Positions 3,173 through 25,503 of a stretch of 40,847 bases of DNA are shown one piece after another. A model generated the notes under the pieces. It saw only the letters and a program-made list of their open reading frames with translations, did no database searches and was not told where the DNA came from. Position numbers and translations under genes: made by a program. Position 1 is the stretch's first letter. Each line of letters opens with the position of its first letter. Source of the stretch: Actinomycetota bacterium (GTDB lineage Bacteria; Actinomycetota; Acidimicrobiia; Acidimicrobiales; Ilumatobacteraceae); contig JAUSLQ010000171.1 of NCBI GenBank assembly GCA_030645675.1, forward strand, positions 1-40,847, written 5' to 3'.

Positions 3173-3188
3173 CTGACGCAGGCGTCAG
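3173..3188. promoter_or_regulatory. Palindromic operator CTGACGC-AG-GCGTCAG (site 1)
   Basis: This is a perfect 7+2+7 inverted repeat in the divergent gap between the cupin (start 3111) and SDR (start 3205) genes. It is a variant of the CTGACAC-NN-GTGTCAG site found at seven further places in the window, and lies 17 bases before the SDR start. It probably controls both directions. The binding protein is not encoded here. Confidence 0.7.
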
Positions 3189-3204
3189 CGTAGTGTGCGA
3201 CGTC

Positions 3205-4005
3205 ATGCAGATCGAAGGGAAGATCGCGGTCGTCACCGGCGGCGCCAGCGGCATCGGGCGGGCGCTGGCCATGGAGTTCGTGGCCCGGGGCGCGGCGGGC
3301 GTGGTGGTGGCCGATCTCGACGGCGAGTGGGCGCAGAAGGTGGCCGAACGCATCGGGGGCCTGGCCGTGCAGTGCGACGTCGGCGAGCCGGGGGCCATCG
3401 AGTCGTTGGTGGCCGCGGCTCGTGCCCGCTACGGGCGTGTCGACATCTTCTGCTCGAACGCCGGTTACAGCGACCCCGTGGGCGTGGGCCTCGACGAGTC
3501 GATGGAGGCGTTCGAGCGCCTCACTCGCGTGAACATGCTGGCCCACGTGGCCGCGGCGAAGGCGGTGGTGCCGGAGATGGTCGAGCGCGGCGGCGGCTAC
3601 CTGCTGCAGACGCTGTCGTCGGCGGCGCTCATCTCCGGGCCCGCCGCGCCGGGCTACACGTTCACCAAGTTCGGGGCGCTGGGGTTCGCCGAGTGGATGG
3701 CCGTGAACTACGGCGCCAAGGGCGTGCGCGTGTCGTGCCTGTGCCCCAACGTCGTCTACACGGGCATGTTCGGCCGGCCGAAAGACCTCGATGCCGTGGC
3801 GGTGCCGCCTGCCGTTGGGGCGCTGGGCGAGGTGCTGCTGCCGGAGGACGTGGCCGTCACCGTCGCCGACGCGATGGAGGGGCCCGAGCCGTTCCTCATC
3901 CTGCCCCACCCGCGAGTGGGCGAGTCGTACCGCCGCAAGGCCGACGACTACGAAGGCTGGATCCTGCGGACGCGCGAGCGACTTGCCCGCATGCAAGCGG
4001 GCTGA
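3205..4005 (+). CDS. SDR family NAD(P)-dependent oxidoreductase
   Basis: The 266-residue classical SDR has VVTGGASGIGRAL at residues 9-21 for dinucleotide binding, the SNAG variant of the NNAG motif near 84-87, Ser138/139 and the catalytic pair Y151/K155 (YTFTK). The Asp in VVVADLDGEW after beta-2 favours NAD(H). Start ATG 3205 is chosen because the fold begins at once (MQIEGKIAVVTGG); an in-frame GTG at 3193 would add four residues. No good ribosome site precedes either, and the operator ends at 3188, so the message is probably almost leaderless. It ends in a convergent gap against the acyl-CoA ligase. The likely role is a hydroxyacyl-CoA or alcohol dehydrogenase in the regulated catabolic set. 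Confidence 0.92.
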   Translation: MQIEGKIAVVTGGASGIGRALAMEFVARGAAGVVVADLDGEWAQKVAERIGGLAVQCDVGEPGAIESLVAAARARYGRVDIFCSNAGYSDPVGVGLDESMEAFERLTRVNMLAHVAAAKAVVPEMVERGGGYLLQTLSSAALISGPAAPGYTFTKFGALGFAEWMAVNYGAKGVRVSCLCPNVVYTGMFGRPKDLDAVAVPPAVGALGEVLLPEDVAVTVADAMEGPEPFLILPHPRVGESYRRKADDYEGWILRTRERLARMQAG

Positions 4006-7647: not shown

Positions 7648-7848
7648 ATGGCTCTGTCCGAGTCTGCCTTGTCCGAGATGCGCGCTGCGATCGATGTCGG
7701 CCAAGGAGGTGATCTGGTCCGCCATCTGGCCGAGTGGGGGCTGCAGCAGTTGATCGAGGCCGAGGCCGCCGAGGTGATCGGCGCCGGCCGCTACGAGCGT
7801 GTCGCGCCGGGCGCATCTTCGGGCCGAGCGCCAGCTGTTACGATCTGA
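7648..7848 (+). pseudogene. IS256 (mutator) family transposase, N-terminal fragment
   Basis: The 66-residue ORF starts MALSESALSEMRAAIDVG and continues DLVRHLAEWGLQQLIEAEA and EVIGAGRYERV, the characteristic N-terminus of IS256-family transposases (about 400 residues when whole). Homology stops after GAGRYERVAPG. The next residues are unrelated and a stop follows at 7846-7848, so the DDE catalytic domain is gone and the copy is dead. A strong ribosome site (AAGGAG) precedes the start. The break is at about 7808, only some 45 bases before the acyl-CoA ligase start, so deletion or insertion at this edge must have shaped the ligase promoter. Confidence 0.8.
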
Positions 7849-7859
7849 CACCGATGTCA
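7839..7859 (+). promoter_or_regulatory. Putative -10 box and operator TGACAC-CG-ATGTCA spanning the ligase start codon (site 2)
   Basis: TGACACCGATGTCA (7846-7859) matches the recurring TGACAC-NN-GTGTCA palindrome with one mismatch. The ATG of the ligase (7854-7856) is the first triplet of the right half-site. A TACGAT hexamer at 7839-7844, 9 bases before the ATG, would place the transcription start at or near the A of the start codon, so the mRNA is probably leaderless. A bound repressor would cover both promoter and start. Confidence 0.6.
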
Positions 7860-9479
7860 TCGTCTCGAGCGCAGCACGAAGCCTGCGCGCTGCCGGTAGC
7901 CCCACCCCTGGTCGGCGTCCACCGCACGCTGGCCGACGCGCTGACGGCAGCGGGCACGCAGCACGGCGAGCGGGAAGCCATCGTCGACGGCGACCGCCGC
8001 CTCAGCTTTGCCGAGTGGGACCGCTGCGCCGAGGGGCTGGCTCGCGTGCTGGTGCAGCGTGGTGTGCGGCCCGGCGACGTGGTGGCGATCGTGTTGCCGT
8101 CGTCCATCGACTACGCGATCGCGTACGGCGCGATCACCAAGGCCGGCGCCATAGCGACCGGGCTGAACCTGCGCCTCGGCGCCCACGAGGTGGCGGCGAT
8201 CCTCGCGATCGCGCCGCCGGCGTTGGTGATCGTCGACCGTGATGCAGCCGCGTTCCGCCTGCCCGCCGGCGTCGCCACCTTCGAGCACAGCGAGCTGCCC
8301 GCGGCCTATACGGCTGCGCCGCTCGCCGAAGGGCGGCCGCCCCGCCAGCCCGACGACCCGGCCGTCATCATCTGGACCAGTGGCACCACCGGCGTGCCCA
8401 AGGGAGCGTGGTTCGACCATCGCAACCTGGAGTCGGCGGTGCTCAGCGCCGGCATCATGAGCCGCCCGTACGACCGCAAGCTGGTGGGGACGCCGTTCCC
8501 CCACGCGGGCTACATGGCCAAGCTGTGGGACCAGCTGGCGTGGGGCACGTGCATCGTCGTCAGCCCGGCGCCGTGGACACCGCAGTCGATGCTGCACTCG
8601 TTGGTGCACGAGCGCATCACCGTCGCCGGGGGAGTGCCCACCCAGTGGGCGAAGCTGCTCGAACTGCCCGATGTGGGCGCGGCCGACCTGTCGAGCGTGC
8701 GCCTCGGGCTGGTGGCCACGGCGCCTGCGTCGCCCGAGCTGATCGAGCGGGTCACCGCGACCATCGGCTGCCCGCTGATCGTGCGCTACGCGATGACCGA
8801 GTCGCCCAGCATCACCGGCACCGAGCCGCACGACCCACCCGACGTGCAGTGCCACACCGTCGGCCGCGCCCAGGAGGGCATGGAGATCGACCTGGTCGAC
8901 GAGGCCGGTGCGCCCGTGACAGCGGGAGCGGTCGGCCGGGTGCGCGTGCGCGGCGCCTGCGTGATGCGCGGCTACTGGGGAGCGCCCGAGACGACCGCCG
9001 CGGTGCTCGGCCCCGACGGGTGGCTGACCAGCAGCGACCTCGGCCGGCTCGACCCCGACGGCAACCTCGTGCTGGTCGGCCGCACCACCGACATGTACAT
9101 CCGTGGCGGCTACAACGTGTACCCGCTGGAGGTGGAGAACGTGCTCGCCGATCACCCGCAGATCGACCGAGTGGCGGTGGTCGGCACGGCCGCCGCGGTC
9201 ATCGGCGAGATCGGCGTTGCGTTCGTCGCGCCCACCGACCCGGCGCACCCGCCCACGCTCGCCGCGCTGCGGCAGTGGACGCGCGAGCGGCTGGCGGACT
9301 ACAAAGCTCCTGACCGCTTGGTGATCGTCGAGGCACTGCCGCTCACCAGCATGCTGAAGATCGACAAGGCACAGCTCAGCCGCATGGCCGCGCTCACGAC
9401 CGACACCCGAACGACTGACACCCGAACGACCGACACCCGAACGACCGACACCCGCACCGGCGACGGCGCACACCACTGA
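7854..9479 (+). CDS. AMP-dependent acyl-CoA synthetase with repetitive C-terminal tail
   Basis: The 541-residue ANL ligase carries WTSGTTGVPKGAW (about 178-190), the A5-like YAMTESPSITG, the hinge STSSDLGRLDPDGNLVLVGRT region and a C-terminal lysine in SMLKIDKAQLSR; the usual P-T-G-K is altered around the lysine. It converts an organic acid to its CoA thioester and probably opens the pathway of this operon. Start ATG 7854 is chosen because homology begins directly after it and the operator/-10 arrangement supports a leaderless start; the frame upstream is shadow coding in the transposase remnant. The last 25 residues are four TDTRT-type repeats. The DUF35 gene follows after 14 bases. Confidence 0.92.
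   Translation: MSSSRAQHEACALPVAPPLVGVHRTLADALTAAGTQHGEREAIVDGDRRLSFAEWDRCAEGLARVLVQRGVRPGDVVAIVLPSSIDYAIAYGAITKAGAIATGLNLRLGAHEVAAILAIAPPALVIVDRDAAAFRLPAGVATFEHSELPAAYTAAPLAEGRPPRQPDDPAVIIWTSGTTGVPKGAWFDHRNLESAVLSAGIMSRPYDRKLVGTPFPHAGYMAKLWDQLAWGTCIVVSPAPWTPQSMLHSLVHERITVAGGVPTQWAKLLELPDVGAADLSSVRLGLVATAPASPELIERVTATIGCPLIVRYAMTESPSITGTEPHDPPDVQCHTVGRAQEGMEIDLVDEAGAPVTAGAVGRVRVRGACVMRGYWGAPETTAAVLGPDGWLTSSDLGRLDPDGNLVLVGRTTDMYIRGGYNVYPLEVENVLADHPQIDRVAVVGTAAAVIGEIGVAFVAPTDPAHPPTLAALRQWTRERLADYKAPDRLVIVEALPLTSMLKIDKAQLSRMAALTTDTRTTDTRTTDTRTTDTRTGDGAHH
9396..9455 (+). repeat. 15-bp tandem repeat, four units, inside ligase 3' end
   Basis: ACGACCGACACCCGA is repeated at 9396, 9411 (one change), 9426 and 9441 (last base changed). 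It encodes the pentapeptide series TTDTR at the ligase C-terminus, after the last conserved motif. It is a coding minisatellite, likely variable in copy number between strains. Confidence 0.9.
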
Positions 9480-9493
9480 AAGGCACGGCAACC

Positions 9494-9898
9494 ATGGCGC
9501 ACGATCGCGAGCTCCCGACGGTGGAGGACGAGACCCGGCCGTACTGGAAGGCGGCCGCCGACGGCACGCTGCTGATCAAGAAGTGCAACGCGTGCGGCGA
9601 GGTGCACCACTACCCGCGCCCGTTCTGCCCCAGCTGCTGGAGCGACGACGTGGCCTGGCAAGAGGCCAGCGGCCGCGGCACCGTGTACACGTACTCCACG
9701 ATCTTCCGCAACGACCTCCCTCCGTTCGACGCCTGGGGCGCGTACATCGCCGCCGTGGTCGAGCTGGAGGAAGGCCCGCGGCTGATGACCAACATCGTCG
9801 ACTGCCCGCCGGAGGAGTGCTCCGTGGGCATGCCCGTGGTGGTCGACTTCCGCCCGCTCACCGACGACATCGGTGCGCCGATCTTCCGCAGGGCATAG
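9494..9898 (+). CDS. DUF35 / OB-fold acyl-CoA-associated zinc-ribbon protein
   Basis: The 134-residue protein has a rubredoxin-like zinc ribbon (C31, C34, C45, C48) followed by an OB-fold half (GRGTVYTYSTIFRNDLPPF onward). Known DUF35 proteins bind acyl-CoA and act as partners of thiolase-like enzymes; in actinobacterial steroid side-chain degradation the ChsH2 DUF35 domain holds the Ltp2 retro-aldolase. Here it lies in an operon after the ligase and before a VOC protein and acyl-CoA dehydrogenase. The nearest Ltp-type thiolase is the convergent gene at 11879, a plausible partner. An AAAGGCACGGCAACC leader gives a weak ribosome site before ATG 9494. Confidence 0.9.
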   Translation: MAHDRELPTVEDETRPYWKAAADGTLLIKKCNACGEVHHYPRPFCPSCWSDDVAWQEASGRGTVYTYSTIFRNDLPPFDAWGAYIAAVVELEEGPRLMTNIVDCPPEECSVGMPVVVDFRPLTDDIGAPIFRRA

Positions 9899-9903
9899 CC
9901 GCC

Positions 9904-10758
9904 GTGATCGATCTCTCCGCCCCAGTCTGCGAGCCCGGCAACTGCCATCGCATCGCGTTTGCGGTGCGCGATCTGCCCGCCGCGGTGCGCTGGTTCGAAG
10001 ATGTCCTCGGTGCGGTCATGCTGCCCATCCCGCAACAGGCGGGCGGGGCCGTGGAGGCCGAGGCCGACGGCGGCCAGATCGCAGTGATGTGGCTGCAGAG
10101 CGTGCCCATCGTGCTGCTCGGCTCCACCCAACCCGACGGCATCATCGGCCGCTACCTGGCCGCCAACGGGCCCAGCGTGCAGTCGCTGGCCTGGGAGATC
10201 CCCGACATGTGGGGCACCGAGAACCTGCTGCGCGCGAACGGCATGAAGATCGTCGGCACCGACATCGAAGGGAGGCACTTCTTCGTGCACCCCAAGCACA
10301 CCGAGGGCATGCTGCTGGAGTACACCGACGACGTGCTGCCGGGCGACCCGCGCCGCGGCAACGGCGTGGCCGCTCTGGTCGGCTCCGTGGCGATCGCCTC
10401 CGTGCAGCGGGTCACCACCGTCGTGCCCGACATCGACGCCGCCGTGGCCGCGCTGCGCTACACGTTCAACGGCGTCGCCGCCGCAACGGCCGACGAAGCC
10501 GTCGACGTCGTCATCGGCGACCTCACGGTTCGGCTGGTCACGGCCGCCACCGACGGCGGGCGTTTCGCCGGGCTCGCGGGTAGCACCCGCTTCCACTCGG
10601 TCACGCTGGCCGTGCCCGACCTCGCCGCGCTACCTGCGCAGCTGACCGCGGCCGGCATCGGCGTCGCCGCCAGCGACACCAACGGCATCGACGGGCAGTC
10701 GTTGTGGGCCGACCCGGCCGGCACGCTGGGCCTGCGGTTCGAGTTCGTCGCGGCATGA
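9904..10758 (+). CDS. Two-module VOC (glyoxalase/extradiol fold) protein
   Basis: From GTG 9904 the protein has 284 residues. An N-terminal VOC module begins NCHRIAFAVRDLPAAVRWFEDVLGA and ends with EGMLLEYTDDVLP. A second starts VQRVTTVVPDIDAAVAALRYTFNG and ends GTLGLRFEFVAA. The paired modules resemble glyoxalase, epimerase or dioxygenase proteins. H15 (CHRIAF) and E109/E140-type residues could be metal ligands, but I cannot assign the reaction; an acyl-CoA epimerase or isomerase would fit the context. The start is 5 bases after the DUF35 stop. Its stop overlaps the start of the acyl-CoA dehydrogenase (ATGA at 10755-10758), indicating coupled translation. Confidence 0.75.
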   Translation: MIDLSAPVCEPGNCHRIAFAVRDLPAAVRWFEDVLGAVMLPIPQQAGGAVEAEADGGQIAVMWLQSVPIVLLGSTQPDGIIGRYLAANGPSVQSLAWEIPDMWGTENLLRANGMKIVGTDIEGRHFFVHPKHTEGMLLEYTDDVLPGDPRRGNGVAALVGSVAIASVQRVTTVVPDIDAAVAALRYTFNGVAAATADEAVDVVIGDLTVRLVTAATDGGRFAGLAGSTRFHSVTLAVPDLAALPAQLTAAGIGVAASDTNGIDGQSLWADPAGTLGLRFEFVAA

Positions 10759-11855
10759 GCCAGGCAGCGGAGCTCGAGGAGTTCCTCCTCGGCGCCATCC
10801 CGCGGTTCCGCGCCCTCGGTGCCGCACCCGGTTCGTGGGACGAGAAGATGGCCTGGCAGCAGATCCTCGGCGAGGGTGGCTGGGTGGCGCCGTCGTGGCC
10901 CGTCGAGCACGGCGGCCGTGGGTTGTCCACCGCCGACCGCATCGAGTGCGAGCTGGTGATGGCCGCGTCGGGCACGCCGATGATCGCGTCCACGTTGGGC
11001 GTGAAGAACGTCGGGCCGACGCTTGCGATGTGGGGCACCGACGAGCAGAAGGCGCACCTGCCGCGCATCCTGTCCGGCGAGGAGATCTGGTGCCAGGGCT
11101 TCAGCGAGCCGGACGCCGGCTCGGACCTGGCCAGCCTGCGCACGCGGGCGGTGCTCGACGGCGACGACTTCGTGATCGACGGCGAGAAGGTGTGGACGTC
11201 GCAGGGCCTGCGCGCCACCCACTGCCAACTGCTGGTGCGCACCGACCCGACCGCGTCGAAGCATCGCGGCATCTCCGCGCTGCTGGTCCCGCTGCACCTG
11301 CCCGGCATCGAGCGTCGCCCGATCCGGCAGATCAACGGCGACTCGGAGTTCGCCTCCATGCACTTCGACGGTGTGCGCGTGCCGCGCTCGGCCCTGCTGG
11401 GGCCGCTGCACGACGGCTGGAACGTCACCACCTCGACGCTGGCCCACGAGCGCGCAGGCGTGGCGATGTTCGCCCAGCGCCACGAGGCGGATGTTCTGGC
11501 CCTCGTGCGCGAACTGGCCGGCAGCGGCCTCGACGCGGTGGCCCGGCAACTGGTCGTGCGCCGCTACATCGACGGCCGGCTGATCGGCCTGGTGGGCCGC
11601 AAGATCCTGTCCACCCTGGTGCAGGGCGGCACGCCCGGCCCCGAGCAGCAGCTGATCAAGCTGGCCTGGAGCCTAGGCGAAGCCCGCCTGGCCGAGGCTC
11701 GTGCGGTGTTGGCCGGCCCGGCGCTGATGGCCGGTGGGGCACCCGAGGCGGAGGAGGCGCTGCTGCGTTCGCGTGCCTCCACCATCGCCGCCGGCACCAC
11801 CGAGGTGATGAAGAACATCATCGCCGAGCGGGTGCTCGGCCTGCCGCGCGACTGA
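10755..11855 (+). CDS. Acyl-CoA dehydrogenase
   Basis: The 366-residue flavoprotein oxidises an acyl-CoA to the 2,3-enoyl-CoA with FAD. It shows WCQGFSEPDAGSDLASL (the flavin/substrate motif of the family, about 112-128), FVIDGEKVWTS, the LVPLHLPGIERRPI middle segment and the ending AAGTTEVMKNIIAERVLGLPRD. It resembles the single-subunit FadE proteins of steroid and branched-acid catabolism rather than classic short-chain enzymes. Start ATG 10755 overlaps the preceding stop and gives a normal N-terminus; further upstream is shadow. It ends the ligase / DUF35 / VOC / dehydrogenase operon, 23 bases from the convergent Ltp-type gene. Confidence 0.95.
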   Translation: MSQAAELEEFLLGAIPRFRALGAAPGSWDEKMAWQQILGEGGWVAPSWPVEHGGRGLSTADRIECELVMAASGTPMIASTLGVKNVGPTLAMWGTDEQKAHLPRILSGEEIWCQGFSEPDAGSDLASLRTRAVLDGDDFVIDGEKVWTSQGLRATHCQLLVRTDPTASKHRGISALLVPLHLPGIERRPIRQINGDSEFASMHFDGVRVPRSALLGPLHDGWNVTTSTLAHERAGVAMFAQRHEADVLALVRELAGSGLDAVARQLVVRRYIDGRLIGLVGRKILSTLVQGGTPGPEQQLIKLAWSLGEARLAEARAVLAGPALMAGGAPEAEEALLRSRASTIAAGTTEVMKNIIAERVLGLPRD

Positions 11856-11878
11856 GGATCCTGGGGGTACGGCGAGGT

Positions 11879-13024
11879 TCAGCCGCGGCCGAGCAGCATC
11901 GTGCCGCTGCTGCAGAACCAGCCACCGGTGCCGCTGACGCAGGCGACCTCGGCATTCGGTACCTGCCGGTCACCGGCCTCGCCGCGCAACTGCTTGGCCG
12001 CCTCGACCAGCAGGAACAGGCCGCGCTGGCCGGGGTGGCAGGCCGACAGCCCGCCGCCGTCGGTGTTGGTGGGCAGCGCGCCGCCGACACGCAGCTTGCC
12101 GTCCTCCACGAACGCACCGCCCTCGCCCTTGCCGCAGAAGCCGAGGTCTTCCAGCGTGATCAGCAGCATGTACGTGAACGCGTCGTAGAGCTCGCACACG
12201 TCGACATCGGCCGGGGTGAGGCCCGCGCGCTGGAACGCGAGGCGGCCCGAGTCGGCGGCCGGGCCGGTGGTGAAGTCGGCCCACTGGGCCATGTTGATGT
12301 GCGAGATGCCCTCGCCACTGCCCAGGATCCAGACGGGCGTGCCCGGGATGTCGGCGACGCGGTCTTCGGCGACCAACACGATCGCGGCTGCGCCGTCGCT
12401 GCGGATGCAGCACTGCAACTTGGTGAACGGGTCGGCGATCATCGGGCCGTCGAGCACGTCGGCGATCGTGATCGGGTCGCGCACGAACGCCTCGGGGTTG
12501 AGGCCCGCGTTGAAGCGAGCGCTGACCGCGATCTCGGCGAGCTGCTCGATGGTGGTGCCGTGCTCGTGCATGTGGCGGCGGGCGGCCATCGCGTACTTGG
12601 AGATGAGAGTGTGCCCGTACGGCGCCTCCCACTGCATCGGGCCGCGGGCGCCCCAGTCGAGGTTGGCGGTGCGCAGGCCCTTGCGCAGGTCGGCGCGAGC
12701 GGTGCTGCCGTAGGCCAGCAGCACGACATCGGCGTGGCCCGCGCTGATCGCATCAGCTGCGTGCGCGGCCATGACCTCCCACGACGACCCACCGACGGCG
12801 GTGCTGTCGATCCAGGTCGGCCGCAAGCCCATGTACTCCGCGACGTCGACGGGGGCCATCGTGCCCAGGCCGGTTGACGCGAAGCCGTCGATCTGGTCCG
12901 GGCGCAGCCCGGCGTCGCCCAGCGCTCGCCGGCTGGCCTGGGCCATCAGGGCGTAGGGGGTCTGGTTGTCGACCTTGCCGACCTCCGACAGTGCAACACC
13001 CGCGATCGCGACTCGGCGACTCAT
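11879..13024 (-). CDS. Ltp/SCPx-type thiolase homologue without the nucleophilic cysteine (probable retro-aldolase)
   Basis: The 381-residue thiolase-fold protein begins SRRVAIAGVALSEVG and contains the SDGAAAIVLVAEDRV core and PTNTDGGGLSACHPG with H330. Where thiolases carry the acylated cysteine it reads STAVGGSSWEVMAA (Ser80/Ser81), and the usual N-E-A-F motif is ELYDAF with Tyr280. Loss of the cysteine and gain of this tyrosine are features of the Ltp2-type aldolases, which cleave beta-hydroxyacyl-CoA side chains without CoA attack and work with DUF35 partners. I infer a similar retro-aldol role here. The start ATG 13024 follows GAGGTCGAAGAG; a longer frame upstream crosses the operator and is rejected. 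It is divergent from the SDR at 13120. Confidence 0.85.
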   Translation of the reverse strand: MSRRVAIAGVALSEVGKVDNQTPYALMAQASRRALGDAGLRPDQIDGFASTGLGTMAPVDVAEYMGLRPTWIDSTAVGGSSWEVMAAHAADAISAGHADVVLLAYGSTARADLRKGLRTANLDWGARGPMQWEAPYGHTLISKYAMAARRHMHEHGTTIEQLAEIAVSARFNAGLNPEAFVRDPITIADVLDGPMIADPFTKLQCCIRSDGAAAIVLVAEDRVADIPGTPVWILGSGEGISHINMAQWADFTTGPAADSGRLAFQRAGLTPADVDVCELYDAFTYMLLITLEDLGFCGKGEGGAFVEDGKLRVGGALPTNTDGGGLSACHPGQRGLFLLVEAAKQLRGEAGDRQVPNAEVACVSGTGGWFCSSGTMLLGRG

Positions 13025-13065
13025 CTCTTCGACCTCCAACGTCCTCGAACCGACTGATACCGTAA

Positions 13066-13081
13066 CTGACACCCGTGTCAC
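13066..13081. promoter_or_regulatory. Palindromic operator TGACAC-CC-GTGTCA (site 3)
   Basis: A perfect 6+2+6 inverted repeat (13067-13080, with a flanking CTGACAC) sits in the 95-bp gap between the divergent Ltp-type thiolase (start 13024) and SDR (start 13120). It is one of the best-conserved copies of the family and could repress both genes. Confidence 0.75.
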
Positions 13082-13119
13082 CGGCCTACCCGGTGGCCCG
13101 CTCGTGAAGGGGAACGTCA

Positions 13120-13884
13120 ATGGGGAATCGTCTCGCAGGTCGTGTCGCGCTCGTCTCTGGCTCCACACGCGGCATCGGCCGCACCATCGCCGAGGTGTTC
13201 GCCGCCGAGGGTGCGAAGGTGGCCGTCACCGGTCGCACCGTGGAGAAGGGCCAGAAGGTGGTCGACCGCATCCGCGAGAACGGCGGCGAGGCCGAGTTCT
13301 TCCAGCTCGACGTCACGGTCGAGCAGAGCGTGCACGACACGATCGAGGCCGTCGTCGCCCGCTTCGGTTCCCTCACCACGCTGGTCAACAACGCCGCGCC
13401 CACCACCGAGGTGTCCACGACGGTGAAGCCCCTGCACCAGTACACGACCGAGGAGTGGAACGGCATCATCACCAGCGCGCTCACCGGCAACGTGTTCTGG
13501 GCCTCGAAGTACGCCTGGCCGCACCTGGAGGCCGCAGGCAACTCCACCATCGTCAACATCTCATCGGGCCAGTCGCTGCGCGGCTTCACCGGCTTCGGTG
13601 CCTATGGCGCGGCGAAGGGCGCGATGAACAGCGTCACCCGCACGCTGGCTGTCGAAGGCGCGCCGGTGGGCATTCGCTGCAACGCCATCATCGTCGGCCG
13701 CATCGTGGCCGGCCGTGGCGACTCGGGCGTGGGCATGTCGAAGGTGCCGGGCAGCATCGGCAACCCCGGCCAGATCGCGTCGACGGCGTTGTTCCTGGCG
13801 TCGGACGAATCGTCGTTCATCACCGGCGACCTGATCACTGCCGACGGCGGTGTCACCGTCAACGGCGACCTGCTGATGGGCTGA
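13120..13884 (+). CDS. SDR family oxidoreductase (FabG-like)
   Basis: The 254-residue classical SDR shows LVSGSTRGIGRTIAEVF at 11-27, VNNAA at 89-93, Ser148/149 and the catalytic Y162-G-A-A-K166. TGRT after beta-2 suggests NADP(H) preference. The C-terminal FITGDLITADGG is typical. It should interconvert a hydroxyl and a keto group on an acyl-CoA or cyclic substrate. AAGGGGAAC precedes ATG 13120. It shares its control region with the divergent Ltp-type gene, suggesting that the two act on successive intermediates. Confidence 0.93.
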   Translation: MGNRLAGRVALVSGSTRGIGRTIAEVFAAEGAKVAVTGRTVEKGQKVVDRIRENGGEAEFFQLDVTVEQSVHDTIEAVVARFGSLTTLVNNAAPTTEVSTTVKPLHQYTTEEWNGIITSALTGNVFWASKYAWPHLEAAGNSTIVNISSGQSLRGFTGFGAYGAAKGAMNSVTRTLAVEGAPVGIRCNAIIVGRIVAGRGDSGVGMSKVPGSIGNPGQIASTALFLASDESSFITGDLITADGGVTVNGDLLMG

Positions 13885-13890
13885 CGCCGC

Positions 13891-13905
13891 GGCCGGTCGC
13901 CGGCC
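13891..13905. terminator. Short GC-rich hairpin between convergent SDR and YkgJ-like genes
   Basis: GGCCGG-TCG-CCGGCC forms a six-pair stem with a three-base loop in the 39-bp convergent gap after the SDR stop (13884) and before the YkgJ-like stop (13924). It is a plausible bidirectional terminator without a T-tract. Confidence 0.45.
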
Positions 13906-13923
13906 GACGCCCGTGCCGCGCGC

Positions 13924-14538
13924 TCAGCGCGGCCGGTGGGTGATCGCCGCCGCGACCTCGGCAGGTGTCGGCTCGCCGCCGCGTAGGAACAGGCGGTGCG
14001 TGCGCACGGCGGCAACTGCTGCCTGGGTGGCGGTGGCCGGCACGGCCTCGCGCGGCAAATCGCCGGATCGGTCGCGAACGAACTCGGCGGCCGACCGCAC
14101 CGCTGCATGCAGCACGTCGTCGAGTTCGGTGGGGTGCTCGAAACGCCATCGCCGCGCCTGCTCTGCGACCGCCGGCCCGTCGGCGTCGATGCCCGCGGCC
14201 GCGAACACGCGGCAGTCGTAGACCCGGCAGGTGTGCGGGCGGTGGGCGTAGATCGTGCAGCGGTCGTCGACCAGCATCGGGCAGCGGCCCTGTTCGTCGT
14301 AGCCCATCAGCATGTGGCCGCGCGGTGCTCCGGGAGCAGGGAACAGCAAGGCGGTGGGGATGTGCGCCAGCGCGTCGCGCTCGTCGGGAGCGATGTGGAT
14401 GAATTGTGCCGAGCGGCAGCACGCCGTGCATTCGCCGCAGGGCACGTCGGACTCGCCGCTGCCGCCGATCGCCGCCAGCGCCTCCGCCAGCCAGGCGCCG
14501 AACGCCCCGGCCGGCAGGTCGCAGGTGTCGTCGTCCAT
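13924..14538 (-). CDS. YkgJ-family cysteine-cluster protein
   Basis: The 204 residues from ATG 14538 carry the CxxC-xx-CC cluster PCGECTACCR, then CPMLVDDRCTIYAHRPHTCRVYDC, which is the YkgJ/UPF0153 pattern of putative zinc or Fe-S binding proteins. Their function is unknown; some are linked to protein modification or metal handling. The C-terminal half is helical and unconserved in appearance. Earlier in-frame starts exist, but they run into the promoter of the divergent thiolase; the DDDTCDLPAGAF start is the most natural. It is not obviously part of the catabolic pathway. Confidence 0.8.
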   Translation of the reverse strand: MDDDTCDLPAGAFGAWLAEALAAIGGSGESDVPCGECTACCRSAQFIHIAPDERDALAHIPTALLFPAPGAPRGHMLMGYDEQGRCPMLVDDRCTIYAHRPHTCRVYDCRVFAAAGIDADGPAVAEQARRWRFEHPTELDDVLHAAVRSAAEFVRDRSGDLPREAVPATATQAAVAAVRTHRLFLRGGEPTPAEVAAAITHRPR

Positions 14539-14612
14539 CGCCGGCCAGCGTGACACCTGGCGCGGATCGCGTCCAGGCGACCGCGCCCCGAGGCAGCGGA
14601 AATGACCCGCAA

Positions 14613-14631
14613 GCGACACCTGTGTCAGAAT
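14613..14631. promoter_or_regulatory. Operator GCGACAC-CT-GTGTCAG with overlapping -10-like CAGAAT (site 4)
   Basis: The palindrome (one mismatch in the left arm) lies in the divergent gap between the YkgJ-like gene (start 14538) and the thiolase (start 14639). CAGAAT at 14626-14631 overlaps the right arm and lies 7 bases before the thiolase ATG, as expected for a leaderless message. Confidence 0.6.
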
Positions 14632-14638
14632 CGACGCC

Positions 14639-15814
14639 ATGCCTGAAGCAGTCATCGTCTCCGCCGCCCGTACACCCATCGCTCGTGCCCGCAAGGGTTC
14701 GCTGGTCGATGTCGACGCCCAGACGCTGGCCCAGATCGCGGTCAAGGCTGCGATCGACCGCTCGGGCATCGACCCGTCGCTGATCGACGACATCGTGCTC
14801 GCCGAGTCGATGCAGGGCGGCGGAGTGATCGCCCGCTACGTCGCCAACGTGCTCGGCCTGCTCACCGTGCCCGGCCTGGCCGACAACCGCCACTGCGCCG
14901 CCGGCCTCAGCGCGGTGCAGATCGGCGCTGCCAGCATCCGCGCCGGCATGGACCAGATCGTGGTCGCCGGCGGCACCGAGAGCCTGTCCAGTGCGCCGCA
15001 GCTGCTGAAGTCCACCCCTGCGTCCGCCGCCGACTTCCAGCCGTGGATGCCGGCCAGCCACCCCGACAGTGCTGCCGCTCCGGCGTGGGACATGAGCATC
15101 ACGGTCGGCGAGAACACCGCCCGCATCGCCGGCATCACCCGCCGCGACGCCGACGAGTGGGCCGCCGGCTCGCACCAGAAGGCCTACGCCCAGGTCAGCA
15201 ACGGCTACTTCGACGCCGAGATCGTGCCGGTCGAGGTGTCCGACGGCGCCGGCGGCACCCGCCTGTTCGCCCGCGACGAGCACCCCCGCCCCGAGACCAC
15301 GGTCGAGAGCCTGTCGGCACTGAAGCTGATCCACCCCGAGATCGAGAACGCCACGGTCACCCCCGGCAACTCGTCGGGCATCAACGACGCCGCGGCGGCG
15401 CTGGTGATCATGAGCGACGAGGTGGCCAAGCGCGAAGGTCTCACCCCGCTGGCCCGCATCGTGTCGTGGGCGTCGGTGGGCATCGACCCCGAGCAGACCG
15501 GCCTGGCCCCCACGAAGGCGATCCCGAAGGCGCTGGCCCGCGGCGGCATGCAGATCAGCGACATCGACCTGTTCGAGATCAACGAGGCGTTCTGCTCGAT
15601 GGCCGTCGCCACCACCCGCATCCTCGGCCTCAACCCGGAGATCGTGAACCCGTACGGCAGCGGCTGCGGCCTCGGCCACCCGATCGCGGCCACGGGTGCC
15701 CGCATGGTGGTCAGCATGATGCACGAGCTGCGCCGCCAGGGGAAGAACACCGGCGTCGTGTCGATGTGCGCCGGCGGCGGCATGGGTTCGGCGCTCGTCC
15801 TCGAAGTGCTCTGA
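14639..15814 (+). CDS. Thiolase (acetyl-CoA acyltransferase, FadA-like)
   Basis: The 391-residue thiolase keeps the complete active site: nucleophile C86 in NRHCAAGLSA, N-E-A-F at about 315-318, H347 in CGLGHPIAATG and C377 in MCAGGGMGSA. It should cleave a 3-ketoacyl-CoA with CoA to release acetyl- or propionyl-CoA, as FadA5-type enzymes do in sterol side-chain degradation. No ribosome site is seen; the ATG follows an operator/-10 arrangement that suggests a leaderless transcript. The start MPEAVIVSAARTPIARA is the standard thiolase N-terminus. The patatin gene follows 7 bases after the stop. Confidence 0.96.
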   Translation: MPEAVIVSAARTPIARARKGSLVDVDAQTLAQIAVKAAIDRSGIDPSLIDDIVLAESMQGGGVIARYVANVLGLLTVPGLADNRHCAAGLSAVQIGAASIRAGMDQIVVAGGTESLSSAPQLLKSTPASAADFQPWMPASHPDSAAAPAWDMSITVGENTARIAGITRRDADEWAAGSHQKAYAQVSNGYFDAEIVPVEVSDGAGGTRLFARDEHPRPETTVESLSALKLIHPEIENATVTPGNSSGINDAAAALVIMSDEVAKREGLTPLARIVSWASVGIDPEQTGLAPTKAIPKALARGGMQISDIDLFEINEAFCSMAVATTRILGLNPEIVNPYGSGCGLGHPIAATGARMVVSMMHELRRQGKNTGVVSMCAGGGMGSALVLEVL

Positions 15815-15821
15815 CGTTCCG

Positions 15822-16682
15822 TTGCCCACCACCGTGACGACGCCGCTCCCCGGGTTGACGCTCGTGCTGGGCGGGGGCGGTACCGGAGGCATCGCGTGGG
15901 AGACGGGAGTGCTGCTCGGCCTCGCTGAGGCAGGCAGTGAGGTGCTCTCCGTCACGCAGCGCGTCATCGGGACATCGGCGGGATCCGCTGTCGGCGCTCA
16001 GGTGCTGTCCGGGCTGGGGATCGAGGAACTGTTCGGTCGGCAGATCTCGGAGGAACACGGCGAGGTCATGCCCGACTTCGACGCGAGCCTGGCGGCCGCG
16101 GTCTTCACTGCACTGTTGGGCGGCAAACCGCTCGACGTGGGTGCACGGCGCCGCATCGGTGCAGCTGCGGTGACTGCACCGACGCTGCCGCCCGAGGTGC
16201 GTCGCGCAGTGATCGAGTGGCGGCTGCCCAGCCACCAGTGGCCGACCACGCACTTGCAGGTCACGGCGGTCGACTGCGAGAGCGGAGATCTCGTCGTGTT
16301 CACGCGCGACAGTGGCGTGTCGTTGGTCGATGCGGTGATGGCCAGCTGTGCGGTGCCGACCATGTGGCCGGTCGTGAGCATCGGGGGTCGGAGCTACATG
16401 GACGGAGGCATCTGCTCGCCGGTGAACGCGCTCCTCGCGGGCGATGCGGCGCGGGTGCTGGTGCTGACACCGCTCACCGGCCCGATGGGCGCCTCCACGC
16501 TCGTGGAACTCGAGCAGCTGCGCGCGAACGGAAGCCGCACGGCCGTGATCAGCGCGGACGACGACGCGATCGCGGCGATGGCCAACCCGCTCGATCCTTC
16601 GTGTCGCGCGCCTGCCGCCGAGCAGGGTCGTCGCCAAGGCCGCGCCGCCGTCGAGCAGGTGCGACTGCTGCTCGCTGATTGA
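15822..16682 (+). CDS. Patatin-like phospholipase/esterase
   Basis: The 286-residue patatin-fold protein has oxyanion-hole glycines LVLGGGGTGGIAW (14-26), nucleophile S52 in GTSAGS and the catalytic-dyad D194 in YMDGG. It should hydrolyse an acyl ester (lipid or steryl/CoA ester). There is no signal peptide, so it is cytosolic. The start could be TTG 15822 or GTG 15834; both precede TLVLGGGG and neither has a clear ribosome site. It lies 7 bases after the thiolase stop and is probably co-transcribed with it. Confidence 0.88.
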   Translation: MPTTVTTPLPGLTLVLGGGGTGGIAWETGVLLGLAEAGSEVLSVTQRVIGTSAGSAVGAQVLSGLGIEELFGRQISEEHGEVMPDFDASLAAAVFTALLGGKPLDVGARRRIGAAAVTAPTLPPEVRRAVIEWRLPSHQWPTTHLQVTAVDCESGDLVVFTRDSGVSLVDAVMASCAVPTMWPVVSIGGRSYMDGGICSPVNALLAGDAARVLVLTPLTGPMGASTLVELEQLRANGSRTAVISADDDAIAAMANPLDPSCRAPAAEQGRRQGRAAVEQVRLLLAD

Positions 16683-16694
16683 TCCGACCGGACC

Positions 16695-17759
16695 TCAGCG
16701 GTCGACGAAGTGCTGCAGCGTAGGCCCCAGCAGGTCGGGGATCGCGCCGTGGATGACGATCTCGTCGGCCCCGGTGGCCAGGTACTTCTGCAGGCGGCGA
16801 GCACACGTGGCGGCCGAGCCGGTGGCGGTGCCTTCCTCCAGCCAGTGGCGGGGCAGCGAGGCGGCCACCTCGGCCAGCTGGTCCTTCGTGAACGCGGTAT
16901 CGGCCGCGCCGCGCAAGCCTTCCAGCATCGGGTGCGCGCGCAACTTGGCCAGCTCGGCGGTGTCGAAGCCGTTGACTCCGGCGAGCAGTTCGCCGAACTC
17001 GGGGATCTGGTAGTAGGTCACCGCCCGGCCGCCCACCACGGCCGCCTCCTGGCCGGCTGTCAGGTCGGGGGCGGTCACGACGGTGGCGTACACCTTCACC
17101 GACAGCGGGTCGCGGCCGGCCGCCTCGGCGGCGGCACGGACGCGCGCGACCGCCCGGCCGACGGCCTCGGTGGTGAGCATCGGGTGCAGGATCGCGCCGT
17201 CGAAGTGGGTGCCGGCGAGATCGAGCGTCTTCGGGCCGATGGCGGCCAGCACGATCGGCGGCGGCGCCACGTCGGGCAGGTCGCCCAGCCGCAGGGAGGG
17301 GAACCGGCCGGCCGGCCCGTCGTACCGCACCTTGCCTCCCTTGCAGAGCGTGCGGAACATCTCGGCGAAGTCGATCAGCACCTGGTTGGTCATCGCCGGC
17401 AGCCCGACCGCCTTCCACATCGGTGCCGTCGAGCGGCCGACACCGAACACGAAGCGCTCGCCGCTGAGCGACTGCATCGTCATCGCCATGCTGGCCAGCG
17501 CCAGCGGATGACGGAACGCGAAGTGCGAGATGCCCGACGCGATCGTGGCCCGCGACGTGGCCTGGGCGATGGCGCCACCGAGCACGCCCAGGTCTTTCGT
17601 GCCGTAGCGCTCGCTGATCCAGATGGTGCCCAGACCGAGGTGCTCGGCGGTCTGCGCCTGGCCGACAGCCGCCCGCGGGTCGCTGACCCGCCCCGGCAGC
17701 ACGTAGGCCCCAAGGCGGTCGAGGGGGCTCGGTTCTCCGGGTGTACGGGCGGCGGGCAT
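16695..17759 (-). CDS. LLM-class flavin (probably F420)-dependent oxidoreductase
   Basis: The 354 residues from ATG 17759 form a luciferase-like TIM barrel: LGAYVLPGRVSDPRAAVGQAQTAE, GLGTIWISERY, ATIASGISHF, GERFVFGVGR and a C-terminal GADEIVIHGAIPDLLG. Actinobacterial members of this subgroup commonly use F420 and act as dehydrogenases or reductases in redox detoxification or catabolism. The substrate is unknown. An in-frame GTG at 17777 would add six residues (MCQTNP); the ATG is preferred because the conserved part begins after it. The start is 11 bases from the operator shared with the divergent phosphotransferase. Confidence 0.9.
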   Translation of the reverse strand: MPAARTPGEPSPLDRLGAYVLPGRVSDPRAAVGQAQTAEHLGLGTIWISERYGTKDLGVLGGAIAQATSRATIASGISHFAFRHPLALASMAMTMQSLSGERFVFGVGRSTAPMWKAVGLPAMTNQVLIDFAEMFRTLCKGGKVRYDGPAGRFPSLRLGDLPDVAPPPIVLAAIGPKTLDLAGTHFDGAILHPMLTTEAVGRAVARVRAAAEAAGRDPLSVKVYATVVTAPDLTAGQEAAVVGGRAVTYYQIPEFGELLAGVNGFDTAELAKLRAHPMLEGLRGAADTAFTKDQLAEVAASLPRHWLEEGTATGSAATCARRLQKYLATGADEIVIHGAIPDLLGPTLQHFVDR

Positions 17760-17769
17760 CGGGTTAGTC

Positions 17770-17783
17770 TGACACACGTGTCA
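17770..17783. promoter_or_regulatory. Operator TGACAC-AC-GTGTCA containing the phosphotransferase start codon (site 5)
   Basis: A perfect 6+2+6 palindrome. The GTG start of the plus-strand phosphotransferase (17778-17780) is the first triplet of the right half-site, exactly the position that ATG has in the ligase site at 7846. On the other side the LLM gene starts at 17759. Binding here would block both divergent genes. Confidence 0.7.
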
Positions 17784-18848
17784 TCTGCCGTCACCTCCCG
17801 CGACCACGACGAAACCACCGCCACGCTGGTGCAGTACCTGTCGCGGCGGCTCGGTGTCGACACCGTCGAGATCAGCGATCTCAGCCTGCCGAAGGCGGGC
17901 TTCTCCAACGAGACCATCCTCGGTCGCGCCGTCTGGGCCGACCGGGCGGGAGCGCACTCGCGCGACTTCGTGCTGCGCATCCAGCCCACAGGCCATCAGC
18001 TGTTCGTCACGCCCGACGCCATCCGCCAGGCGCAGGTGGTGTCCAGCCTGGCCGGCCACGTACCGGTACCCACCGTGTGGCTCACCGAGGCCGACCCGGC
18101 GGTGTTCGGCGCCCCGTTCTACCTGATGGACCGCTCGTACGGCCGGGTTCCACCCGACGTGCCCACGTTCCACAAGAAGGGCTGGGTGGCCGACCTGCCC
18201 GAGCCGCAGCAGCGCCTGGTGCACGAGAACGGCATGCGCGAGCTGGTGCGCCTGCACGGCATCGCCGACCTGGCCCCGTTCCAGTTCCTCGACACGCCGG
18301 GCGACGGGGCGACGGCGCTGGAGCGCTACGTGCGCCACATCCACGGCTGGTACGAGTGGTGCGCGCCGGTGCGGGTGCACGCACCCGAGGTGATCGACCG
18401 GGCGATGCAGTACGCGCTCACCGAGATGCCCACCGACGACAGCGCGACCATCGTCTGGGGCGACGCCCGCATGGGCAACATCATGTTCGGCGACGACCTG
18501 TCGGTGGCCGCGATGTTCGACTGGGAGGGCGCCACCCTCGGCCCGCCCGAGATCGACGTCGCCTGGTGGGTGCTGTTCGACGAGTTCCTCTGCGAGAGCC
18601 GCGGCGCCACCCGCCTACCTGGCATCGCCGGGCGCCAGGAGTTCTTCGCGAAGTACGAGGAGCTCAGCGGCCGCTCGCTGCGCAACATCGACTACTACTC
18701 CGTGCTCGGCGGCCTGGTGCTGTCGATCATCAACAGCCGCCTGGCCGACCTGCTCGTGAAGAGCGGTGCCACCGAGCCGGCGATGGCGGCGAAGTTCGTC
18801 ACCTGGGTCACCGACATCACTACCCGCCACCTCGACGCACTGGGCTGA
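17778..18848 (+). CDS. Aminoglycoside-phosphotransferase-like kinase (ACAD10/11-type)
   Basis: The 356-residue APH/choline-kinase-fold protein shows AGFSNETIL (phosphate loop region), FVLRIQPTG for the ATP-site strand, IVWGDARMGNIMFGDD (Brenner catalytic loop, W for the usual H) and AMFDWEGATLGPPEIDVAWW (metal-binding Asp). Bacterial relatives next to acyl-CoA dehydrogenases resemble the kinase domain of ACAD10/11, which phosphorylates 4-hydroxyacyl-CoAs; a similar role here is inference. GTG 17778 is chosen because no other start precedes the conserved region and it lies within the operator, mirroring the ligase at 7854. No ribosome site is present, so the mRNA is probably leaderless. Confidence 0.85.
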   Translation: MSSAVTSRDHDETTATLVQYLSRRLGVDTVEISDLSLPKAGFSNETILGRAVWADRAGAHSRDFVLRIQPTGHQLFVTPDAIRQAQVVSSLAGHVPVPTVWLTEADPAVFGAPFYLMDRSYGRVPPDVPTFHKKGWVADLPEPQQRLVHENGMRELVRLHGIADLAPFQFLDTPGDGATALERYVRHIHGWYEWCAPVRVHAPEVIDRAMQYALTEMPTDDSATIVWGDARMGNIMFGDDLSVAAMFDWEGATLGPPEIDVAWWVLFDEFLCESRGATRLPGIAGRQEFFAKYEELSGRSLRNIDYYSVLGGLVLSIINSRLADLLVKSGATEPAMAAKFVTWVTDITTRHLDALG

Positions 18849-22174: not shown

Positions 22175-22193
22175 CTGACACGAGTGTCAGAAT
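22175..22193. promoter_or_regulatory. Operator CTGACAC-GA-GTGTCAG with -10-like CAGAAT, upstream of meta-cleavage operon (site 6)
   Basis: A perfect 7+2+7 palindrome at 22175-22190, with CAGAAT at 22188-22193 overlapping its right arm as at site 4. It lies 78 bases before the dioxygenase ATG 22268 and is the only such site of the four-gene ring-cleavage operon. The GTG inside the right arm (22184) is in frame with the dioxygenase and open, but the coding start is better placed at 22268. Confidence 0.75.
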
Positions 22194-22267: not shown

Positions 22268-22885
22268 ATGCCTGCCATTCCCAACGCCCAGCTCACTCAC
22301 ATGGGGTTGTTCGTCAACGACCCGGCCGTCATGGTCGCGTTCTACACCGAGCTGTTCGGCTTCGAGGTCAGCGATGCCGGCGAGTTCCACGGCAAGCACC
22401 TCACGTTCCTCACCCGCAACACCGACGAGCACCACCAGCTGGTGCTGATCCGGGGCCGCACCGCCGGGCCGGGCGAGAAGCTGCTCGGGCAGGTGTCGTT
22501 CCGCGTCGACACGTTGGCCGACCTGCGCCACTTCCTTCGCCGCTCCGCCGAATTGGGCGCCACCGAGCACGAGGCGCGCAACCACGGCAACAGCTGGAGC
22601 ATCTACTTCCGCGACCCAGACCACAACTTCATCGAGATGTACGTGGTCACCCCCTGGCAGGTGCGCCAGCCGTGGCGGGTGGAGCTGGATCTCGATCTTC
22701 CCGACGCGGAGATCGAGGCGCTGACCAAGCAGCTGATCGACGAGGCGGGGGTGTTCGTGCCGCTCGCCGACTGGACCCGCGAGATGGCGGCCCGCATCGC
22801 CGCCCGCAGCGCCGGCGCCGCTGGCACCGCTGGCCCTGCTGGCCCTGCTGGCACCGCTGGCCCCGCTGGTGGTGACCGGTCGTGA
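22268..22885 (+). CDS. Single-domain type I extradiol dioxygenase (VOC family) with collagen-like tail
   Basis: The 205-residue VOC protein carries the 2-His-1-carboxylate triad expected of an Fe(II) extradiol dioxygenase: H11 (LTHMGLFV), H56 (DEHHQLVLI) and E123 (NFIEMYVV), plus the active-site-like H106 in NHGNSWSIYFRDPDHN. It would open a catechol-type ring next to the hydroxyls (meta cleavage). It is the short single-module type, not the two-module BphC/HsaC length. AAAAGGGAGCACACG precedes ATG 22268. The tail after about residue 185 is GTAGPAGPAG-like and low in complexity. Its stop overlaps the GTG start of the hydrolase by 4 bases. Confidence 0.88.
   Translation: MPAIPNAQLTHMGLFVNDPAVMVAFYTELFGFEVSDAGEFHGKHLTFLTRNTDEHHQLVLIRGRTAGPGEKLLGQVSFRVDTLADLRHFLRRSAELGATEHEARNHGNSWSIYFRDPDHNFIEMYVVTPWQVRQPWRVELDLDLPDAEIEALTKQLIDEAGVFVPLADWTREMAARIAARSAGAAGTAGPAGPAGTAGPAGGDRS
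22818..22872 (+). repeat. Coding repeat for Gly-x-x (collagen-like) tail of dioxygenase
   Basis: A series of GGCACCGCT / GGCCCTGCT nine-base steps encodes Gly-Thr-Ala and Gly-Pro-Ala triplets (GTAGPAGPAGTAGPAGG) at the C-terminus of the dioxygenase, just before the hydrolase start. It is probably unstructured and variable. Confidence 0.85.

Positions 22886-25499: not shown

Positions 25500-25503
<4 letters not shown>
23830..25503 (+). CDS. FAD-dependent aromatic hydroxylase (MhpA-like class A monooxygenase)
   Basis: The 557-residue class A flavoprotein monooxygenase begins [19 protein letters not shown] (FAD ADP-binding site), has [17 protein letters not shown] (DG motif) and [18 protein letters not shown] (GD motif). 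Length and [18 protein letters not shown] match the 3-(3-hydroxyphenyl)propionate hydroxylase family. With NAD(P)H and O2 it would make the catechol cleaved by the dioxygenase at 22268. The C-terminal thioredoxin-like domain is interrupted by a [11 protein letters not shown] run near residue 485. The stop overlaps the hydratase GTG by 4 bases. The exact aromatic substrate (phenylpropanoid or other phenol) is not decided. Confidence 0.9.
25276..25311 (+). repeat. 9-bp tandem repeat (GATGGCGGT, four units) in hydroxylase gene
   Basis: GATGGCGGT is repeated at 25276, 25285 and 25294, with GATGGCGGC at 25303. It keeps the frame and encodes a Gly-Gly-Asp run in a surface loop of the hydroxylase C-terminal domain. 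Unit number can vary without a frameshift. Confidence 0.9.

Follow-up and report, generated by a model that had tools for sequence, protein, structure and literature searches.

The stretch of DNA analysed here (the window) comprises 40,847 nucleotides (nt) of an Actinomycetota genome assigned to Ilumatobacteraceae (contig JAUSLQ010000171.1, positions 1 to 40,847) and contains four exact copies of the palindrome TGACAYNNRTGTCA, against a mean of 0.03 in shuffled sequence, with none of 100 shuffles reaching four. Copies with one mismatch to TGACANNNNTGTCA lie at 14614, 30563 and 40483; a looser pattern allowing two mismatches was dropped as being at chance level (14 found versus 11.9 expected in the window). 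The palindrome is over-represented near genes of one pathway, in the manner of a TetR-family operator/repressor unit, and we refer to it below as the operator. At two of the exact copies a gene's start codon forms the opening triplet of the right half-site, a feature pointed out in the initial annotation of this DNA and read directly in the sequence. The operator TGACACCGATGTCA (7846..7859) continues into an AMP-binding acyl-CoA ligase (ATG 7854; 7854..9479, plus strand) as TGACACCG-ATG-TCATCG (7846-7862), preceded by TTACGATC; the operator TGACACACGTGTCA (17770..17783) continues into an APH-family phosphotransferase (GTG 17778; 17778..18848, plus strand) as TGACACAC-GTG-TCATCT (17770-17786), preceded by GGTTAGTC. 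Both start codons are thus followed by TCATC, as had been remarked. Their frames enter long open reading frames (ORFs) of 541 and 356 codons, with the Pfam domains AMP-binding and APH, respectively. The annotation's further remark that neither gene has a ribosome site is borne out: in neither case does the interval 3-13 nt ahead of the start contain a Shine-Dalgarno (SD)-like 5-mer.

The phosphotransferase is preceded by a -10 hexamer, TAGTCT (17765..17770, plus strand), which ends 7 nt before GTG 17778 and shares its last T with the operator; a C stands at position -1. An LLM class F420-dependent oxidoreductase (TIGR03857; 16695..17759, minus strand) diverges from it at ATG 17759, with 18 bp between the two start codons; this neighbour and the operator it shares go unmentioned in the annotation. 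The candidate -10 of this gene, CAGACT (17766..17771, minus strand), lies 6 nt before its ATG and overlaps TAGTCT by 5 bp. At the ligase, the -10-like hexamer TACGAT (7839..7844, plus strand) stands 9 nt before ATG 7854.

How informative is a start codon in this position? RTG (R being A or G) is built into TGACAYNNRTGTCA, whose right half-site begins with it on both strands in every copy, so that the position of the start codon alone proves little. The four exact operators of the window provide six gene-facing readings, this status being judged by hand, and four of the six are in frame and open: those into the ligase, the phosphotransferase, the extradiol dioxygenase gene and the thiolase 11879-13024 (minus strand), which is missing from the annotation's examples. 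The last two have SD-led ATG starts, at 22268 (AAGGGAG) and 13024 (GGAGG). In the wider set of 33 distinct exact sites, defined by their 64-bp context with the window included and sites at locus ends excluded, frames open for at least 90 codons follow the operator RTG in 31 of 66 readings, and an open frame by itself therefore means little. A TANNNT hexamer 6-9 nt before the operator RTG is present in only five of the 66, all of which enter long frames: the phosphotransferase three times (in the window's own genome, in the related genome G014, and in G003 and G009, identical and merged), the ligase, and a TetR gene of G014. No reading in a narrower set of 11 loci (22 readings) has TANNNT at this distance. 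The meta-cleavage gene, put forward in the annotation as having an equivalent GTG at 22184 (operator 22176..22189), does not belong to this group. The frame from this GTG runs uninterrupted into ATG 22268, the likely start of the extradiol dioxygenase, but no TANNNT lies 6-9 nt before it; we therefore set GTG 22184 aside as a coincidence of frame.

The same coincidence could be suspected of the phosphotransferase, whose mRNA might begin farther upstream, with GTG 17778 read behind a leader without an SD sequence or with another start in use. The built-in RTG, the 31 open readings and the two SD-led genes with open in-frame operator GTGs all lend themselves to this explanation, and what decides against it is conservation. 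Full-length relatives with more than 55% identity, sought in 100 genomes including the window's own, were found in the own genome, G003, G009 and G014 (one genus, 86-88%) and in G064 (56%), a member of another family of the same order; a scan of genome contigs returned the same four other relatives, in metagenome-assembled genomes labelled Actinomycetota, Acidimicrobiaceae or Acidimicrobiia. All five orthologues found, from the two families, display TA[GC]TCT-N7-RTG-TCA in register, the -10 being TAGTCT or TACTCT and ending 7 nt before a start codon that is GTG in four of them and ATG in G064. The left half-site of G064 is degenerate (TGGCAGAGATGTCA); its start, -10 and right half are retained. 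All five have TCA as their second codon, a triplet that accounts for 15 of the 599 Ser codons in the tabulated ORFs of the window. None of the five has an in-frame ATG, GTG or TTG within 38 nt upstream, the nearest being an ATG at -39 in G064, although CTG occurs at -9 in every one; most downstream in-frame starts are scattered and unconserved. In addition to this conserved register and spacing, a leader would fall inside the coding region of the oxidoreductase, which starts 18 bp away, and no SD sequence precedes GTG 17778. A more distant transcription start thus appears unlikely. The phosphotransferase is probably leaderless, with the operator lying on its start codon, and for this gene the superimposed leaderless design proposed in the annotation is supported, and the register of start and operator is kept in orthologues; for the meta-cleavage gene the design is not supported.

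The leaderless signature can be compared with its frequency in the genus. In 800 kb of G014, for which 526 genes were predicted by simple ORF calling based on length and codon GC, TANNNT ends 6, 7, 8 and 9 nt before ATG in 34, 31, 23 and 8 cases, and before GTG in 20, 22, 3 and 2 cases, compared with a background of approximately 2-3 per position elsewhere. The pattern TANNNT-N6..9-RTG is found at 141 of the 526 genes, against 18, 24, 11, 19, 26 and 22 at six control spacings, which suggests that between about a fifth and a quarter of the genes of G014 look leaderless. GTG starts peak at 6-7 nt, and the phosphotransferase, with its gap of 7 nt before GTG, is typical of this distribution. Within the window, examination of every ATG and GTG within 90 nt of each tabulated start revealed the signature in five of 37 genes: the SDR gene 3193-4005, the ligase, the phosphotransferase, the hydratase at 25500 and an MFS gene. 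The ligase and the phosphotransferase are therefore not the only leaderless-looking genes of the window. The GTG of the HPD-type hydratase (25500) overlaps the end of the flavin monooxygenase gene ahead of it and follows TACGGT at a distance of 6 nt; the hydratase gene may have an internal leaderless start. Back-to-back arrangements of the form CAY-N6..8-ANNNTANNNT-N6..8-RTG occur ten times in the 800 kb of G014, versus 1-5 times in six Markov simulations, and five of the ten lie between two divergent in-frame ORFs that share ANNNTANNNT (contigs C25 and C26). Pairs of leaderless genes arranged back to back may hence be a habit of this genus.

The oxidoreductase opposite the phosphotransferase would form such a pair with it. 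The gap between the two starts is 18 bp in all four genus genomes that have the gene pair and 19 bp in G064. In each of these genus genomes the operator's own TGA provides the stop, at -24, that ends the oxidoreductase frame on its upstream side, and the only other start ahead of its ATG is a GTG within the operator. A leaderless oxidoreductase is likely on this geometry rather than on its motif, and because its start is only 18 bp away, one operator probably covers a two-way promoter serving both genes. A different possibility for this strand is a leadered transcript, given that the SD-like stretch GGAGGTGA and a 6-codon ORF (MTRVSD/MTRVSE; window 17798-17764, minus strand) run across the operator in G000 (the window's own genome), G003, G009 and G014 and might constitute a leader peptide. 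However, GGAGGTGA merely reads the conserved V-T-S codons of the phosphotransferase on the opposite strand, and G064 lacks it, so that the stretch and its short ORF are probably a by-product of those codons; we regard the leader peptide as highly improbable.

Which repressor would bind the operator? Exact TGACAYNNRTGTCA sites number nine in the own genome, eight in G003, five in G009 and six in G014, the genus genomes with the gene pair, and none was found in the other 11 of the 15 genus genomes. A TetR gene of G014 (C19:147112) has orthologues in G003 and G009 (83-84% identity) and, in other genera, relatives in G445 (71%) and G053 (54%); the 11 operator-free genomes contain no close match to it (best E value 3.7e-8 or weaker). 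Genes of this type read TTGACACTAACGTCATGTCATC-ATG in G003, G009 and G014, with TAACGT 9 nt and the operator TGACACTAACGTCA 7 nt before the ATG, and in G445 TTGACACTACTGTCATGTCAT lies upstream of the frame. A TetR gene that itself bears the operator thus accompanies the other operators in G003, G009, G014 and, outside the genus, G445. The G014 protein was placed in TetR by NCBIfam and PDB searches, scoring below the cut-off of every listed NCBIfam family. A TetR protein encoded on the phosphotransferase contig of G064 is 40% identical to it and has in common with it the stretch SRASFYTYFPSKR, which we take to be the recognition-helix region. Another TetR gene, inside the G014 cluster (C19:119426; intact at L093 7418-8050), was considered as the regulator and rejected: only fragments of it persist in G003 (L092 8259-8697) and at best 35% identity over part of the protein in G009, yet both genomes keep their operators. 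Furthermore, no operator with 0-1 mismatch was found within the 7 kb taken around its relative in the own genome. For these reasons the C19:147112 type fits better, and this TetR, whose gene bears an operator where it begins, is a likely candidate for the regulator.

We propose that the palindromes are the operators of a TetR-family repressor governing a catabolic regulon, and that the operator at 17770 sits on the -10 and start region of a very short promoter working in both directions. The transcript of the phosphotransferase would lack a leader and begin at or beside GTG 17778, and the oxidoreductase on the other strand (ATG 17759) would probably be leaderless too, transcribed from the overlapping -10. 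A bound dimer would then cover the phosphotransferase gene from the end of its -10 across the transcription start as far as codon 2, and would also overlap the -10 of the oxidoreductase, so that RNA polymerase would be blocked in both directions until an inducer, probably an intermediate of the pathway, frees the operator. That the operator encloses the start codon would follow from leaderlessness, since nothing then holds promoter and codon apart. The sequence, its conservation, the lack of an SD sequence, the leaderless signature in G014 and the co-occurrence of operators with a TetR gene were observed, and from them we infer the transcription starts, the repressor and its binding, the repression and the inducer. 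To this explanation we assign a probability of roughly 0.7.

A number of observations weigh against it. Four of the five phosphotransferase orthologues come from a single genus, and all five have in common a GTG at codon 65-66 that offers an alternative start, although one well within the conserved domain. SD sequences precede several of the operator-linked genes, and the placement of a start in the operator is accordingly not the rule of the regulon. On the oxidoreductase side, CAGACT lacks the first T of TANNNT, and CAGACT/CAGAGT is weak by the statistics of G014: CANNNT shows no enrichment at gap 6 (31 versus a mean of 33.6), and its count of 76 at gap 7 belongs to a three-base period (55, 76, 44 and 57 at gaps 4, 7, 10 and 13). 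With regard to the repressor, G445 and G053 have three and two exact sites together with a TetR relative, and G445 has no close phosphotransferase (best 35%). Moreover, the window's own assembly, which is 80% complete, yielded no TetR of the C19:147112 type (best match 28%), whereas the cluster TetR does have a relative there (L127, G000:C254, 64-73%).

The ligase presents a less clear picture. ATG 7854 is the predicted start that fits the ligase N-terminus, and the gene is among the five operator readings with TANNNT in range. TACGAT stands one base from the ligase operator, as TACCGT does before a DUF35 gene of G014, where TGACACACCTGTCA, an operator of the looser type, lies directly ahead of an SD-led start and no ligase is present. 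In the window the DUF35 gene is downstream of the ligase, so that the composition of the ligase block differs between genomes. These points are in favor of the ligase being a second case that arose separately, with the gene lying behind an operator next to DUF35, and that is leaderless or nearly so from TACGAT. The gap of 9 nt, in contrast, falls in the tail of the G014 distribution (8 cases before ATG versus 34, 31 and 23 at gaps 6, 7 and 8). The register of start and operator was observed only in the window's genome: 11 of 30 ligase matches were examined, the window's own included, and none of the ten other loci has an operator (0-1 mismatch) between -300 and +60 of the match start. The nearest relatives, by eye, start close behind an upstream gene. 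A probable 5' fragment of a Mutator/IS256-type transposase (7648..7803, plus strand) ends approximately 35 bp before the ligase -10, and the promoter may be recent or damaged. The fragment matches the Mutator-type Pfam family with an E value of 0.003, below the cut-off, and two Rhodococcus plasmid sequences, of which one is annotated as a transposase, share 58% identity with it across 52 residues. An operator on a near-leaderless ligase start is plausible, found as it is in one genome and with marginal spacing, and we lean slightly towards regarding it as a second, separately arisen case.

A further predicted case of the design, in another gene, is the TetR gene of G014 listed among the five readings (C20; L118 ~2179, the same place as L128 4934), in which ATG opens the right half of TGACATTAATGTCA. 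The sequence reads GTAGCGT-TGACATTA-ATG-TCA-ACG, with TAGCGT 8 nt before the start (TAGCGT-N8-ATG). The encoded protein is ~35% identical to the candidate regulator, its best other matches being at 33-35%, and the gene on the other side of the palindrome has GGGAGG before its ATG. It is about an even question whether the broader statement is true, that two leaderless genes, diverging from starts 18 bp apart, are both controlled by one 14-bp TetR operator and that starts within operators arose more than once. The phosphotransferase, the ligase and the G014 TetR gene would then be independent origins, and the regulatory region of the divergent pair would be reduced to essentially the 18-bp gap, with the operator running into codon 2 of the phosphotransferase and supplying the upstream stop of the oxidoreductase. 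Selection for repressor binding would fix coding bases.

The remaining operator sites show other arrangements. The copy at 13067..13080 lies between an SDR gene (13120, plus strand) and the thiolase at 13024 (minus strand), both SD-led, and next to it TACCGTA (13058-13064), kept in G003 and G014, can be read as a TANNNT -10 on either strand; it is probably a bidirectional promoter of SD-led genes. The one-mismatch operator CGACACCTGTGTCA (14614..14627) precedes another thiolase start, ATG 14639 (CAGAAT-N7-ATG, no SD), and the same order of operator and CA(N3)T-N7-ATG without an obvious SD recurs at this gene in three genomes (own 14614-14639, L092 230-255 and L096 335-360; own, G003 and G009) and at another gene of G014 (L094 4390). 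A second arrangement, in which the last CA of the operator is inside the -10, is possible for these sites. In the window at 3174-3207, TGACGCAGGCGTCA differs from the operator at two positions, and behind it comes TAGTGT-N8-ATG; this ATG, at 3205, is an in-frame start codon situated 12 nt into the SDR gene 3193-4005. Sites of the type TGACATNNATGTCA (L084/L118, L086 and L091) were set aside as probably a different operator class; ATG-TCA is in frame at L086, L091 and L100, with no TANNNT, and at L118 with one. Palindromes of the GGGAC...GTCCC or GGGGC...GTCCC type occur beside TGACA-N4-TGTCA at L013 ~1480-1514, L011 ~1501-1535 and L100 ~8226-8275. They resemble DosR boxes.

Among the closest precedents is the acuR-acuI-dddL operon of Rhodobacter sphaeroides, which is described as a leaderless operon under a TetR-family repressor, with a 5' end mapped at the ATG; according to the abstract, related operons are also without leaders (PMC3017554). 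The two systems are alike in the repressor family, the operator over the promoter, the absence of an SD sequence, the catabolic function and an mRNA beginning at the start codon, which in our case is predicted. The first leaderless gene of the acuR system is the repressor itself, transcribed one way from a promoter overlapped by an inverted repeat, whereas the operator described here extends over codons 1 and 2 of a structural gene and probably acts on a divergent pair. Nearer to acuR is the TetR gene of G014 that has its ATG in the palindrome. The same source names lambda cI and Tn1721 tetR as leaderless, which they have in common with the phosphotransferase as predicted, except that those genes encode repressors. 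The crtR gene has likewise been reported as leaderless, its binding motif lying upstream of the crtE start (PMC5401885).

Divergent transcription from a shared symmetric -10 is known from the bidirectional promoters of Escherichia coli, where starts lie 18 bp apart more often than at any other distance and where AcrR, of the TetR family, represses both directions of acrAB/acrR (PMC12825309). A spacing of 18 bp is found here between start codons, and the candidate -10s overlap, that of the oxidoreductase being weak. The word leaderless does not appear in that study; in our case the start codons would themselves be the transcription starts. The leaderless side has its counterpart in mycobacteria. 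In Mycobacterium tuberculosis 26% of the genes with a primary transcription start site are leaderless (PMC3898074), and ATG or GTG at +1 is necessary and sufficient for leaderless translation, with C preferred at -1 (PMC4633059). The TANNNT -10, the proportion of approximately a quarter of genes and the C at -1 are shared with the present data, but the mycobacterial studies, in the parts available, are genome-wide surveys and do not concern a repressor site on a start codon.

In the open-access literature, viewed mostly as titles and beginnings of abstracts, we found no description of a divergent pair of leaderless genes, spaced by 18 bp, with an operator on the start codon of either; among the papers listed for a TGACAYNNRTGTCA-type operator with TetR no title concerns this operator, and the full pattern does not occur in them. 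Of two open-access papers that combine leaderless with Acidimicrobi, neither has these terms in its title or abstract. The sequence statistics suggest that leaderless genes are common, at about a quarter, in a member of an Acidimicrobiia genus, which matters for the annotation of start codons in this group. The proposed arrangement would offer a testable example of how far leaderless genes allow bacterial control regions to shrink, and of N-terminal codons held in place by the binding site of a transcription factor. Each of its elements, leaderless genes under TetR control and bidirectional promoters alike, is already known from the systems above; the arrangement proposed here combines them.

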